This document shows, piece by piece, positions 956-14,543 of a DNA stretch of 64,000 nt. Below the pieces are notes generated by a model, which was given only the letters and a program-made list of their open reading frames with translations, did no database searches and was not told the DNA's origin. This DNA comes from Paenibacillus sp. FSL H8-0537 (lineage in GTDB: Bacteria; Bacillota; Bacilli; Paenibacillales; Paenibacillaceae). Every line of letters begins with the position of its first letter. Within the stretch, counting starts at the first letter, position 1. The stretch covers positions 3,648,001 through 3,712,000 of the forward strand of contig NZ_CP150290.1 of the NCBI RefSeq assembly GCF_038051995.1. The letters run 5' to 3'. Both the position numbers and the translations under genes were made by a program.

Positions 956-3900
956 CTAAGCGCTCGTCAGCGGAAAAAGCATAATAGACAGCTTCATCGG
1001 CTGCGGCTTTACTAAATAAGCGTCCAGCGTCGGCGCGTATCCGCAGCTGTGGTTGCCAATGCCGCTTTGTATGGCATCGATTTTGACAATCGTTTCTGGC
1101 AGTCTGGTCAGCTTATGGACATGGCTGGTGCGCGACAGATCTTCCGTGGAATAATGATGGACACTAATGTTGAACCGCTCGCTGCCTGTTATCCCGATTC
1201 CAGCACCTTCCCCATTCCCAAGCTTTGCCCAGCGGACATCAGCCTTATTACCATTTTCCTGCGGCTTAACATAGGGAACAAACTGCTCCGCTACCGTGCC
1301 GCCGTAAATACCAAGCTTGCCGCTTTCTTTACGGTCGGCATAACATTCATGAGGACCTCTGCCATACCAGCTGAACTGGTCATAGCTGTCACGGAGACGC
1401 AGCTCCAAACCAAATCGCGGCAGTGGCGGCAGCTCGCTTCCAAGCGGTTCAATCGTCGTTTCCACGCCTATGGAACCGTCAGCGTTGATTTGGTGAATCA
1501 TTTTGCAGAGGAAAGCTGCTGGTTCGCCTTTTGCGCCCATGATCGCTTCAGCCGTAGTTATGACGCTTCCCTGATGGTCAACCGTCACCGAAAACTGGCG
1601 CAGCTGCCACTCAAGCCGATCATAACCGGCTTTCACCCATTCTTTTGCCAAATGAACATCGTTGTCCAGCGGGGCACGCCATAGCTGCAGCTGTGGACCT
1701 GTGAGCAGCAGCTCATCGCCGTAATGCAGCCAATTGCTGATTGTGCCTGTCATTTGATCGATGTCTACCTGAAACCCGTTCCCGCTTATGCGGCATACAA
1801 GCTTGCCGTCTTCCCGCTGCAAATTTTGATGCTTAGGCGGCTTTGGTACGGGAATCAATTCGGAAGCTTCGGCTGCGACCAGACGAACAGTACTAGAAAA
1901 CTCAGCATTAGCGTTATACGCTGTAGCATTTTCCTGCGGGTACCAACCCGCCTCCTCAAACAGTAAATCGGCCCAAGCTGTCTCATGACCGGCGTCACAC
2001 CACAAGCTATTATTGCGCTCTGTAAAACGGATATGCAGCGCATACTCGCCTTTTTCCATTAATTGCTCCAAAGGGAGCGGAATGTCTAACGTCTCTTCCC
2101 CCCCGGGCGGCGTCTGCAAGCGGGCAAGCTCGCCTTGCGCAACCGCAGCGCCGCTGCGCAGCAGCTGCCAATGTCCTTTCAAATGTCCCAGCGACAAAAA
2201 GCTGTAGCGATTTACAATATGAACTCTGCCAAGCTGTGCGGGGTCCGGCTTTATTTTCACCGGCTGAACGATCTTCTTATATTCCAGCAGGGATGCTTTA
2301 ATGCTTCTATCTGGAAACAGCAGCCCGTCCATGCAAAATGGTCCGCTGTGCGGGGCATCGCCAAAATCGCCGCCATATGCGTAAAACGCAGCTTCTCCGT
2401 CCTTTTGCCGCAAAATACCCATATCTGACCACTCCCAAATAAGGCCGCCCAGCAACCTGGGATATTCGTAAACCGCATCCCAGTATTCCTGCAAATTGCC
2501 CGTGGAATTGCCCATGGCATGACCGAACTCGACCATGAGATAAGGGCGGTCATCCGGCTTGCGTCCCTCTTCTATGAGCATGTCGACTGAAGGGTACATG
2601 GAACTCACGATGTCAACGACTGCGGCTTCATAAGCCCGCTCGTAGTGAACCAGGCGAGTCGGATCGGCGCTGCGGATCCATTCCGCCATAGCATCATGAT
2701 TTTTACCATAGCCAGACTCATTCCCGAGCGACCATACGATGACAGAAGGATGATTTTTATCCCGTCCAAACATCTTTTGCGCACGATGCATATAGGCTTC
2801 ACGCCAATCTGGATGTTTGCTCAAATAAGACTCATCGCCCATAAAATGAAAGCCGTGCGTCTCCAAATCTGCTTCGTCTATAACGTATAAGCCAAATTGG
2901 TCGCATAAATCGAGCCAACGTGAATCATTCGGATAATGGGACAGCCGAACCGTGTTAATATTATGCTGCTTCATCAGCCTTATATCTTCCAGCATCGCTT
3001 CGGGGGTCGTTACATAACCCAATTGCGGGTGGAACTCATTGCGGTTGACGCCTTGAATGACGATAGGCTGCCCATTTATAAGCAGCTTCCCTTTTTCAAT
3101 TTGAATATCCCTGAAGCCAACTGAAAGCTGCTTTACCTCCGCTATCGCTCCGTCTTGGCCATGGAGCGTCAACAAAAGCTTATACAAATAAGGCGTTTCC
3201 GCTGTCCATAGCTGAGGCACTGAAATAGGAAACTGCACTGCTAACGTTCGGAGCTCTTTAAGCGAATGTGACGTTGGAAGGTTGAACGATTGAATAGCGA
3301 CGCTCTCTCCACCAGCATCTAGCAAGGCGGCGCTTAAATGGAAGCCTTCTCCCGAGCTGTAATCCGTTTCGTTTATGGTTTGGCTCGCGGTTTCTACCGC
3401 GTCTTTCCAAATGCTGCGTTGAGCAAGCGTAAGCTGCAAGCTGAGGCTCGCCTCCTGGTACGCGGAGTCGGGTACAAATGTGGTTCGCACCCGTATATCC
3501 TCAATTGTGACAGCAGCCTGTGCCGTTAAATAAACATCGCGAAATATTCCGCTCAGCCGCCATTTGTCCTGCGATTCCAAGTAGCTGCCATCGCACCATT
3601 GGTAGACACGTACTGCAAGCAAATTAGAGCCAGGGCGGAGCAGCTGGGAAATATCAAACTCTGCCATATGATGGCTTCCCTGACTGTATCCGACCAGCTC
3701 GCCATTGAGCCATACATGGAAGGAGGAATCGACTCCGCCAAATACGAGGCGAATTTGGCGTTTTTCCCAATGCTCAGGTGCCGTAAAGCTGGTACGGTAG
3801 CAGCCAGTAGCGTTGAGCAGTGGAATATGTGGAGGGTCAAGCGGGAATGGATAAGGACAGCTGCTGTAATGTGGCTGTCCGTAACCGTGCATTTGCCAAT

Positions 3901-4162
3901 TGGAGGGCACGGGAATATGATCCCACAGCGTATCATCGCAAGCCTCCAAATGGCTATCGACCGCACAGTGCATAGGCGAATCAAAGTAGCGGAAACGCCA
4001 ATTCCCGCTGAGCAGCTTGTAATAGGGCGATTCGTTCCGGTCACCACGCAGCGCGGCTGCGGTATTGTCAAATGGAATGAGTTCACTGCGTGGCGGCATT
4101 GTACTGCGCTCCAGCACGTTTAAGTTGCAATAATCTGGCAGTTGCTCGCGTTCAATTGGCAT
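956..4162 (-). CDS. lacZ: Beta-galactosidase, glycoside hydrolase family 2
   Basis: Large GH2 beta-galactosidase of about 1,068 residues, close to E. coli LacZ in length and domain order: jelly-roll sugar-binding domain, immunoglobulin-like domain, TIM barrel, second Ig-like domain and a C-terminal beta-galactosidase small-chain domain. The acid/base glutamate is in [10 protein letters not shown] (near residue 481). The nucleophile is in [11 protein letters not shown] (near residue 544). There is no signal peptide, so it should act in the cytoplasm on imported oligosaccharides. The ATG at 4162 overlaps the end of the upstream kinase gene by 11 bases and has an AAGGGAGGG ribosome binding site, so the two are co-translated. 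As last gene of the cluster it probably removes terminal beta-galactose. Lactose need not be the natural substrate. Confidence 0.95.
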
Positions 4163-5678
4163 GAGCCGCCCTCCCTTGCTTCATACGGGTGAAAAAATCC
4201 CGCTCTCCGATTTGTCCACCCTTCAGCACTAGCTCCAGCCCATCCAGCGCGGACTCCTCCGAGAAGGCTCGACATAGCGGCGCCCCTGGCGTCAGCGCAG
4301 CCACGCATTCCAGCGCATAAATGCCCAGGCCGCGCGTCACATAACCGGACGTATCCCCACCAGCGATGACGATGCGTGTAAGCTGCTCATCAATGATTAG
4401 CTCCCGCGCCAGCGCGCCAAGCAAAGCGCCCAATAGGCGACTGCTTTGCTCAGGCCCATAGCCCTGCGCAGCAAGCGTTTCACGGAAAAGCGGAATGCTT
4501 GGATCGTCTACACCTTCCGCTGAATAAAGCAGCAGGCTGTGCCCTTCGGCAAGCCTTTCCCGAGCCTCTTTCAGCAGCTGCTGCCGGGCAGCCGCGCCTT
4601 TCTTTCCGTCCAGCAGCTCCTCTGCCGGTACCCGAATGCCCACAAAACCCGCTGCCCGCGCTGCTTTGATTTGCTGCTCCGTAACTGGCGAGCAGCTACC
4701 CGACACAACGAGCAGACGTTCAACCTCTGCTGCTGGAGCAGCACTAATCTCTGGCTGCTGCGGCAGCAAGCCAAGCTGCCTCCAACAGGCTCCAAGCGCA
4801 TACTCCACGCCAGAGGAGCCAATGGCAAATAAGCCGTCGCGCTGCTGGGCTTCCGCCCAAATCAGCTGTCCAGCCGCTGCCAGTCTAGCTTCGTCAAGCA
4901 CATCAAACAGCACGAGATCAGGCTGCTCGCGCTCTACAAGCCTAGCGAGCCGTTCGCCCACTTCGGACTCGGCTCCCTCCAGCGCCAAAATATCCATCAG
5001 CGCCGTCTTTAAATCCGTCTGCTGCGCCAAGTGCTGGCGCAAATCCGCTTCCGCCATCGGTGTAATCGGATGGCGCGACATCGTCGGATGGCGATCAAGC
5101 CGGTACGTCTCATCGCCCGCCGCTGCAAAATGGTTGCCAAACAACGTATAGCGGCCTAAATAAGGAACCCCTGCCAGTACCGGAACATAACCAGCTCCAA
5201 ACACCGCACGGCCTATTTCCGCCGCCTTGCCGATGCTGCCAACCTCAGCGGAGGAATCGAATGTAGAGCATATTTTGTAATGCGTAACAGCTGCCCCTAT
5301 TTTCCGAAGCTGCTCCAGTACCGGACGCAGCTCGCGCTCCGCCTCATCTGGCGTCAGCGAACGCCCGATGCCCGCTACTCCTATGGCCTCTAGATCTGCA
5401 AATTTGCTGGCAAGCAGCTGCTCGCTAGGCGGCTCCAGAAACAACGCTGCGCGAAGGCCAGCTCGGAACAGCGCTTCCAGCACATCGGTTGAGCCTGTGA
5501 AATCGTCCCCATAGTAGCTGAGCAGGCGCTGCGCTGCCGGGAGCCGATCGGCGCATTGTGCCCGCGCTTGCTGCCGCGTGGCATCCCCCCTATTGCCTTT
5601 GCTGAATGCCAGCTCCCTGCCGATACCGCTTGTTTCACAATCGTCTGGCTTATGCGTTAATTCCCCTCTGTCCATCAC
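4152..5678 (-). CDS. Four-carbon acid sugar kinase family protein (DUF1537; OtnK/OiaK-like)
   Basis: Member of the DUF1537 kinase family, which phosphorylates short sugar acids such as threonate, erythronate or 3-oxo-isoapionate with ATP. The N-terminal substrate domain begins at [16 protein letters not shown] (near residue 55). The C-terminal nucleotide-binding domain holds [16 protein letters not shown] and ends near [14 protein letters not shown]. It is the immediate downstream partner of the RuBisCO-like gene (3-base gap), the arrangement known for the 3-oxo-isoapionate pathway. About 50 residues precede the conserved core and match nothing I recognise. The start could be the GTG at 5678 or the ATG at 5675. 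The substrate is inferred from the neighbour only. Confidence 0.88.
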
Positions 5679-5681
5679 CGC

Positions 5682-14438: not shown

Positions 14439-14482
14439 GATAAGACACCCTCTCATTCATAATGATCTGCCTCTTTATTGTA

Positions 14483-14497
14483 TTGAAAGCGCTTCCT
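14483..14497 (-). promoter_or_regulatory. Candidate cre (CcpA) site before the sugar operon
   Basis: The bases TTGAAAGCGCTTCCT form a near-palindrome around AGCGCT and fit the Gram-positive catabolite-response element with mismatches at one end. A weak -10-like TACAAT lies just downstream on the minus strand. The position, about 45 bases before the binding-protein start, fits repression by CcpA when glucose is present. Confidence 0.6.
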
Positions 14498-14543
14498 TAA
14501 TTCTGTCTATGATTTTGACTTCTAATGTTGAATATTCCGACTT

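Follow-up and report, generated by a model that had tools for sequence, protein, structure and literature searches.

The DNA analysed here is a 64-kb window covering positions 3648001–3712000 of the single-contig 7.0-Mb genome of the soil bacterium Paenibacillus sp. FSL H8-0537, which is close to Paenibacillus algorifonticola (GH127-like protein 98% identical). Eleven minus-strand genes run from 19271 down to 956, encoding in this order a GH78 enzyme, a sensor kinase, a binding protein, two permeases, a response regulator, a GH127-like protein (GHL), an Asp/Glu-racemase-family protein (RAC), a RuBisCO-like protein (RLP), a DUF1537 kinase (KIN) and a GH2 enzyme (Table 1). The nine genes of 956–14456 are separated by −11 to 178 bases, and the steps from GHL through RAC, RLP and KIN to GH2 measure 55, 49, 3 and −11 bases. 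A preliminary description had taken these nine genes as one unit; the grouping stands but its limits do not, because the GH78 and sensor kinase genes keep the same order in relatives, which extends the unit to 19271. The terminator that the same description placed at 873–903 was found as a terminator-like minus-strand hairpin at 909–873. We propose, with moderate confidence, that the unit imports side-chain fragments of the pectin rhamnogalacturonan II (RG-II), trims them, and feeds a branched acid, most likely aceric acid, into a RuBisCO-like pathway.

Table 1. Genes and signals of the conserved unit and its immediate flank, in window coordinates
Feature	Positions	Strand	Basis or remark
GlcD-like 2-hydroxyacid oxidase subunit, possible accessory	20783..22243	-	beyond GH78
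GlcF-like 2-hydroxyacid oxidase subunit, possible accessory	19351..20826	-	beyond GH78
GH78 alpha-L-rhamnosidase, first gene of conserved unit	16548..19271	-	Pfam PF17389, PF08531, PF05592, PF17390
Sensor histidine kinase	14544..16304	-	Pfam His_kinase, HAMP, HATPase_c
cre-like catabolite-repression site, TTGAAAGCGCTTCCT	14483..14497		0 mismatches; upstream of binding-protein gene
ABC solute-binding protein, lipoprotein-type N-terminus	13086..14456	-	PF01547, PF13416
ABC permease 1	12038..12907	-	PF00528
ABC permease 2	11220..12041	-	PF00528
Response regulator with AraC-type DNA-binding domain	9493..11181	-	PF00072, PF12833
GHL, GH127-like cysteine glycosidase candidate, 574 aa	7748..9472	-	fold and invariant residues
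RAC, Asp/Glu-racemase-family protein	7009..7692	-	PF01177, 74.6 bits
RLP, RuBisCO-like protein	5682..6959	-	PF00016, PF02788
KIN, DUF1537-type acid-sugar kinase	4152..5678	-	PF07005, PF17042
GH2 beta-galactosidase-type glycosidase, last gene	956..4162	-	PF02836, PF02929, PF02837
Intrinsic-terminator-like hairpin	873..909	-	3' of GH2

The four genes from GHL to KIN form the conserved core of the unit. A scan with a GHL alignment found 116 loci, 80 of which, together with the window, make up the 81 loci counted throughout (some share a genome or overlap, namely L005/L009, L007/L008 and L057/L058). GHL, RAC, RLP and KIN are consecutive on one strand in 44 of them, counting recognised genes only; the GH78 cluster is present in 35 and the sensor kinase orthologue cluster in 29. 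Among the 60 loci from Paenibacillaceae or Bacillaceae, 46 hold RAC, RLP and KIN, three hold RAC with a beta-keto-acid cleavage enzyme (BKACE), two hold RLP and KIN without RAC, one holds RAC and RLP only, and eight hold none, several of these eight being contig ends and one, L035, having its RLP just past the fetched stretch. From outside these families come 21 loci, 15 of them without any of RAC, RLP and KIN. No other gene is linked as closely to RAC–RLP–KIN as GHL. Across 334 family genomes GHL occurs in 37, RLP in 43 and both in 33 (Fisher p 2.6e-32, in a test that treats genomes as independent, which related genomes are not). An RLP search of 398 genomes of the phylum at E 1e-90 returned the Paenibacillus sp. 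FSL H8-0537 genome only.

At five loci (L028, L050, L054, L076 and L077), a different DUF1537 kinase and a BKACE gene occupy the place where RLP and KIN stand elsewhere, and the genomes of these loci give no RLP match at E 1e-60. Within the 334 family genomes BKACE is found in four, which are exactly the four GHL genomes without RLP. These four share one genus, so the replacement may have happened there only once; a second instance is seen in Oscillospiraceae (L076 and L077). BKACE enzymes act on beta-keto acids (PMC10971088, in excerpt), as do RLPs of the OiaX kind (PMC6302742, in excerpt). RLP and BKACE seem to replace each other, and since both kinds of enzyme use beta-keto acids, we conclude with fair confidence that the pathway intermediate is a beta-keto acid. 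Against this, BKACE enzymes usually need a hydrogen at C2 for their mechanism. The BKACE found with a second DUF1537 kinase at these loci possibly has a new substrate. For an RLP of the OiaX kind, the substrate is a phosphorylated beta-keto acid.

The large-chain domains PF00016 and PF02788, together with a residue set, place RLP among the catalytically competent members of the RuBisCO superfamily. Residues K165, K191, D193, E194, H280 and K320 are invariant in 21 RLPs, and by their motifs we take them to be RuBisCO K175, K201, D203, E204, H294 and K334. KIN combines the SBD_N and NBD_C domains (PF07005, PF17042) that define the DUF1537 acid-sugar kinases. The best NCBIfam matches of the two proteins are OiaX (NF042437, 464.3 bits) for RLP and OiaK (NF042436, 505.9 bits) for KIN, each under its cut-off of 700. 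Most RLP relatives are 417–424 residues long, so RLP may start at the ATG at 6941, and the profile match of KIN begins at residue 50, where again the start codon may be internal.

The RLP tree, built from 87 rows, puts the window protein in a 47-row clade (support 98/90), of which 44 rows come from GHL or RAC loci and two of the other three are identical copies of GHL-linked rows. All rows labelled as linked to a TRAP transporter or to the apionate oxidoisomerase ApnO lie outside this clade (ApnO, ApsD, ApnL and ApsI are labels that we assign partly from annotation words), although L039 and L052, inside it, do carry an ApnO-like gene beside the RAC gene, within the core. Taken together, the GH- or RAC-linked RLPs do not form a single clade (10 changes), and we therefore claim no single origin for them. 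Grouping of the kinase and RLP with a characterised set of other substrate had been named beforehand as the outcome that would count against a separate pathway; instead, the scores lie under the OiaX and OiaK cut-offs and the clade is free of ApnO- and TRAP-labelled rows. Five columns (T41, A214, V370, L373 and L379) differ between 44 core and nine ApnO-linked RLPs, and only T41 differs also from all 10 TRAP-linked rows; these columns are too weak to argue for a substrate.

Two further groups of RLPs stand beside this comparison. In Paenibacillaceae, ten loci (L112–L114, L116, L118–L121, L123 and L125) represent a third class, in which the RLP–kinase pair is linked to a TRAP-type transporter. 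A plasmid of Natronosalvus rutilus (L095) encodes a haloarchaeal RLP, 57% identical, with a kinase, an SDR and a racemase-family protein, and similar matches lie on at least five further haloarchaeal plasmids among the matches listed.

The GH127 label given to GHL in the preliminary description draws no support from Pfam or NCBIfam, neither of which gives a match (PF07944 at gathering level included), and rests on the predicted fold and on invariant residues. The predicted structure has the clan GH-P fold, an (alpha/alpha)6 barrel with a beta-sandwich, and its best Foldseek matches are GH127/GH146 enzymes, mostly beta-L-arabinofuranosidases. E298-x-C300 and C396-C397 are invariant in 29 GHL sequences, with the spacing reported for the E-x-C and CC residues of the GH127/GH146 Zn-Cys3-Glu site (PMC10850190, in excerpt). 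Identity to solved members is about 14–16%; a phmmer search of the PDB with GHL gave only a ribosomal protein, at E 0.3, and a GHL profile search found 5opj at E 3.8e-5. Of 230 listed relatives of GHL, the best 120 are at least 54% identical and include one with PF07944; we treat the relatives as a family of their own. No obvious signal peptide is visible by eye in the first 40 residues. Within the excerpted GH127/GH146 tree of PMC10850190, the aceric acid hydrolase BT1003 is the only non-arabinofuranosidase named; BT_1003 is among the fold matches of GHL, not the first of them. We propose that GHL may be an aceric acid hydrolase, and its tight link to RAC–RLP–KIN would fit an enzyme that frees the pathway's own sugar.

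With fold neighbours that are mostly beta-L-arabinofuranosidases, GHL might instead be an arabinofuranosidase, and the unit might serve another beta-keto or branched acid of RG-II or a related pectin, derived from apiose, Kdo or Dha by some further step or from a different 2-carboxy sugar. RLP–kinase pairs with further substrates do exist, as the TRAP-linked pairs (10 of the 20 fetched paralogous loci) and the haloarchaeal pairs with RAC and SDR illustrate. However, Kdo and Dha are alpha-keto acids, unlike RLP substrates, and were set aside on these chemical grounds, and the close linkage of GHL to RAC–RLP–KIN fits a hydrolase that releases the sugar of the pathway itself; we regard this alternative as somewhat unlikely.

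Another alternative, the first that we considered, is that KIN and RLP work like OiaK and OiaX on 3-oxo-isoapionate derived from apionate, the apiose coming from RG-II, which contains it, and the first steps being encoded elsewhere or carried out by other enzymes. OiaK and OiaX being the best NCBIfam matches, and the ApnO-like gene inside the core of L039 and L052, speak for it, but the sub-cut-off scores and the distribution of apiose genes have weakened it. The preliminary description had noted the absence of an apionate oxidoisomerase gene, and an ApnO-like query (PGDH_C family) indeed finds no match anywhere in the genome, whereas the same query succeeds in seven of the 20 fetched RLP loci (ten of the others have a TRAP transporter, and the last three are L115; L122, a GHL locus; and L131, with RAC, RLP and KIN beside AptA, AptB and AplK). 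In 10 of the 81 loci (nine distinct operons, one shared by L005 and L009), the core adjoins isomerase, split-transketolase and FGGY-kinase genes. These show 36–51% identity to AptA, AptB and AplK of E. coli SE15, which belong to a cluster that enables the use of D-apiose for growth (PMC13001218, in excerpt). AptA occurs in 36 of the 37 GHL genomes, the sole one without it being a 63% complete genome, versus 35 of the 297 others. In the Paenibacillus sp. FSL H8-0537 genome, an ApsI-like, AptA, AptB and AplK set lies at about 1.09 Mb, apart from the window operon. Ten genomes have RLP without GHL, and the one of these with AptA has its RLP (L115) among GH95, GH42 and GH106-like genes. In addition, six GHL genomes keep a second, distinct RLP–kinase pair beside ApnO- and ApsD-like genes (L124, L126–L130), three of them with an ApnL-like gene. 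Because of this separate transketolase pathway and of the distinct ApnO-associated pairs, the window-type RLP appears, on gene content, not to be for apiose, yet it travels with apiose users, and we now consider the apionate explanation unlikely.

The glycosidases around the core point to RG-II, which occurs in all land-plant walls and has aceric acid as one of its signature sugars, next to rhamnose in chain B. Near the core, GH137-like genes are found in 9 of the 81 loci, GH95 in 7, GH42 in 7 and GH106-like in 5; the best solved match of the GH137-like protein is 5mt2 (E 3.6e-34), presumably the GH137 domain of BT0996. A Croceibacterium plasmid joins GH127, RLP and KIN to a GH137-like gene, two beta-galactosidases, a fucosidase and GH28. 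GHL, RLP and KIN occur together with GH78, GH2 and two GH28 genes on a Streptomyces plasmid, and a Rufibacter plasmid has RLP, KIN and RAC with GH28 and a pectinesterase; in actinobacteria GHL often adjoins GH78 without RLP. GH137 is named for RG-II (PMC10850190, in excerpt), and both long RG-II chains hang on a rhamnose–apiose pair (PMC12282258, in excerpt, where the B. thetaiotaomicron RG-II degradome is described), so a user of aceric acid would also be a user of apiose, which is the pattern seen. The earlier suggestion of a branched acid from RG-II-type side chains, as opposed to ordinary apiose, gains from the separate apiose pathway in 36 of 37 genomes, from apiose-gene linkage in 10 of 81 loci, from the linked GH78, GH137-like, GH106-like, GH95 and GH42 genes, and from the BKACE replacement; the substrate itself we infer. 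A small plant glycoside in place of RG-II, such as an apiosylated and rhamnosylated flavonoid or saponin with the apiose genes explained by apiosides, would suit enzymes that look intracellular, a genome without GH137- and GH106-like genes, and the activity of GH78 and GH2 enzymes on such glycosides, but is very unlikely in view of the GH137-like, GH95 and GH106-like genes at nine, seven and five loci, of the GH28 polygalacturonases or pectinesterase beside RLP–kinase pairs in three other phyla or classes, and of our knowing no RLP-suited acid sugar from apiosylated or rhamnosylated plant glycosides.

We return to aceric acid, for which RAC would supply the missing step. In agreement with the one-cysteine protein described beforehand, RAC keeps C80 but has S190 where the second racemase cysteine would stand, in all 60 aligned rows (58 of them distinct), and so lacks the pair of catalytic cysteines of an Asp/Glu racemase. 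An aldose–ketose shift would need just one acid–base residue, and we propose RAC as a candidate aldose–ketose isomerase. In the route envisaged, the importer would take up RG-II side-chain fragments, and GH78, GH2 and GHL would trim them inside the cell, GHL freeing aceric acid (3-C-carboxy-5-deoxy-L-xylose). Isomerisation, with RAC as the candidate enzyme, would give CH2OH-CO-C(OH)(COOH)-CHOH-CH3, a beta-keto acid; it would be a homologue of what OiaX-type enzymes act on, differing from 3-oxo-isoapionate only in having CH3-CHOH- in place of HOCH2-. The absence of ApnO and the presence of a one-cysteine enzyme would both be expected, because the ketose of aceric acid needs an isomerase only and no oxidoisomerase. 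KIN would phosphorylate the CH2OH group. RLP would then either decarboxylate the product to 5-deoxypentulose 1-phosphate, which would be split to dihydroxyacetone phosphate (DHAP) and acetaldehyde as in the DHAP shunt (PMC10986504, in excerpt), or act as a transcarboxylase/hydrolase, which is the other activity that apionate RLPs are reported to have (PMC6302742, in excerpt), and yield 3-phosphoglycerate and L-lactate. No adjacent direct aldolase or downstream isomerase was seen among the core-neighbour clusters scanned, which included a minority of the small ones.

Several observations weigh against aceric acid as the substrate. GHL is not specially close to BT1003, and any of five further PF07944 matches in the same genome could be the true aceric acid hydrolase. 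Some GHL loci have no RLP, and L029, L032 and the sets of Croceibacterium and Streptomyces are without RAC. Searches of the genome with the GH137- and GH106-like proteins that relatives encode also gave no match, GH137 being among the RG-II-specific glycosidases; the organism may import only fragments that are already trimmed, or its glycan may be a different one.

The cre-like site announced at 14483 proved to be a perfect match, TTGAAAGCGCTTCCT. Across the window, matches with at most one mismatch are not commoner than in shuffles (37 vs 36.5), and this density, 37 in 64 kb, predicts about 0.13 per 220-base stretch. The 220 bases preceding the binding-protein gene hold a match without mismatch in 15 and with at most one in 25 of 29 loci, the window included and the loci being related; by this measure the site is conserved. 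Scanning for sigma-70 promoters did not yield a useful start site, and an Rfam scan gave nothing at gathering level.

Beyond GH78, the GlcD/GlcF-like pair would suit a 2-hydroxyacid product of RLP, but it adjoins the core elsewhere only in L006 and L031, so that just 3 of 81 loci have it. Beside this pair, at 22327–23085, lies a divergent GntR regulator of the FCD type. At the other end, the best NCBIfam models for the GH2 protein score under their own cut-offs. Six loci (L041, L042, L043, L046, L048 and L049) are variant clusters with extra genes between GHL and RAC–RLP, for an approximately 1100-residue protein (no Pfam match in L041, the one tested), a Gfo/Idh/MocA protein and an alpha/beta hydrolase. 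In L030 and L031 the core is immediately preceded by a DtnK-like kinase and a PdxA-type dehydrogenase of a four-carbon acid pathway.

Glycosidases for aceric acid are known; we did not find the fate of the freed acid described, and none of the open-access PMC articles listed in our searches dealt with aceric acid catabolism. Nor did we find a description of the RuBisCO family acting on an RG-II acid sugar. We tentatively put forward the unit as the first aceric acid catabolic pathway, composed of a GH-P cysteine glycosidase, a metal-free one-cysteine aldose–ketose isomerase, a DUF1537 kinase and an RLP, in which a second lineage has swapped kinase and RLP for another DUF1537 kinase and BKACE. 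If true, it would give RuBisCO-like proteins a new natural substrate, the Asp/Glu-racemase superfamily a possible new activity and the GH127-like enzymes a new family, and would provide a marker gene by which complete users of RG-II among soil bacteria could be recognised. Because BKACE takes the place of RLP so exactly, the type of intermediate is directly testable.

Four known systems resemble the unit in part. Like the RG-II degradome of B. thetaiotaomicron, reportedly worked out by Ndeh et al. in 2017, the core is surrounded in relatives by GH78, GH2, GH127-type, GH137, GH106 and GH95 families, but here they belong to a Gram-positive ABC-importer unit with intracellular enzymes and acid-catabolic genes in the same unit. 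With the GH127/GH146 enzymes of clan GH-P (HypBA1, BT0349, BT1003), GHL shares the fold and the E-x-C and CC residues; unlike them, this 574-residue protein has no PF07944 match and is about 14–16% identical to the solved members. The oxidative D-apiose pathway, with the DUF1537 kinase OiaK and the RuBisCO-like proteins OiaX/OiaT, as Carter et al. are said to have described in 2018, likewise has an adjacent DUF1537 kinase and RLP, and the window RLP keeps the metal-site lysine and acidic residues; however, the window genome has a racemase-family protein instead of an apionate oxidoisomerase, its pair is tied to GH127-like, GH78 and GH2 enzymes and scores under the equivalog cut-offs, and a separate apiose pathway is present. 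That separate pathway, the D-apiose transketolase route of ApsI, AplK, AptA and AptB known from E. coli ST131 and Pectobacterium (PMC13001218, in excerpt), has orthologous AptA, AptB and AplK, which lie next to the core in relatives and at a different place in the Paenibacillus sp. FSL H8-0537 genome, but it serves apiose itself and uses neither an RLP nor a DUF1537 kinase.

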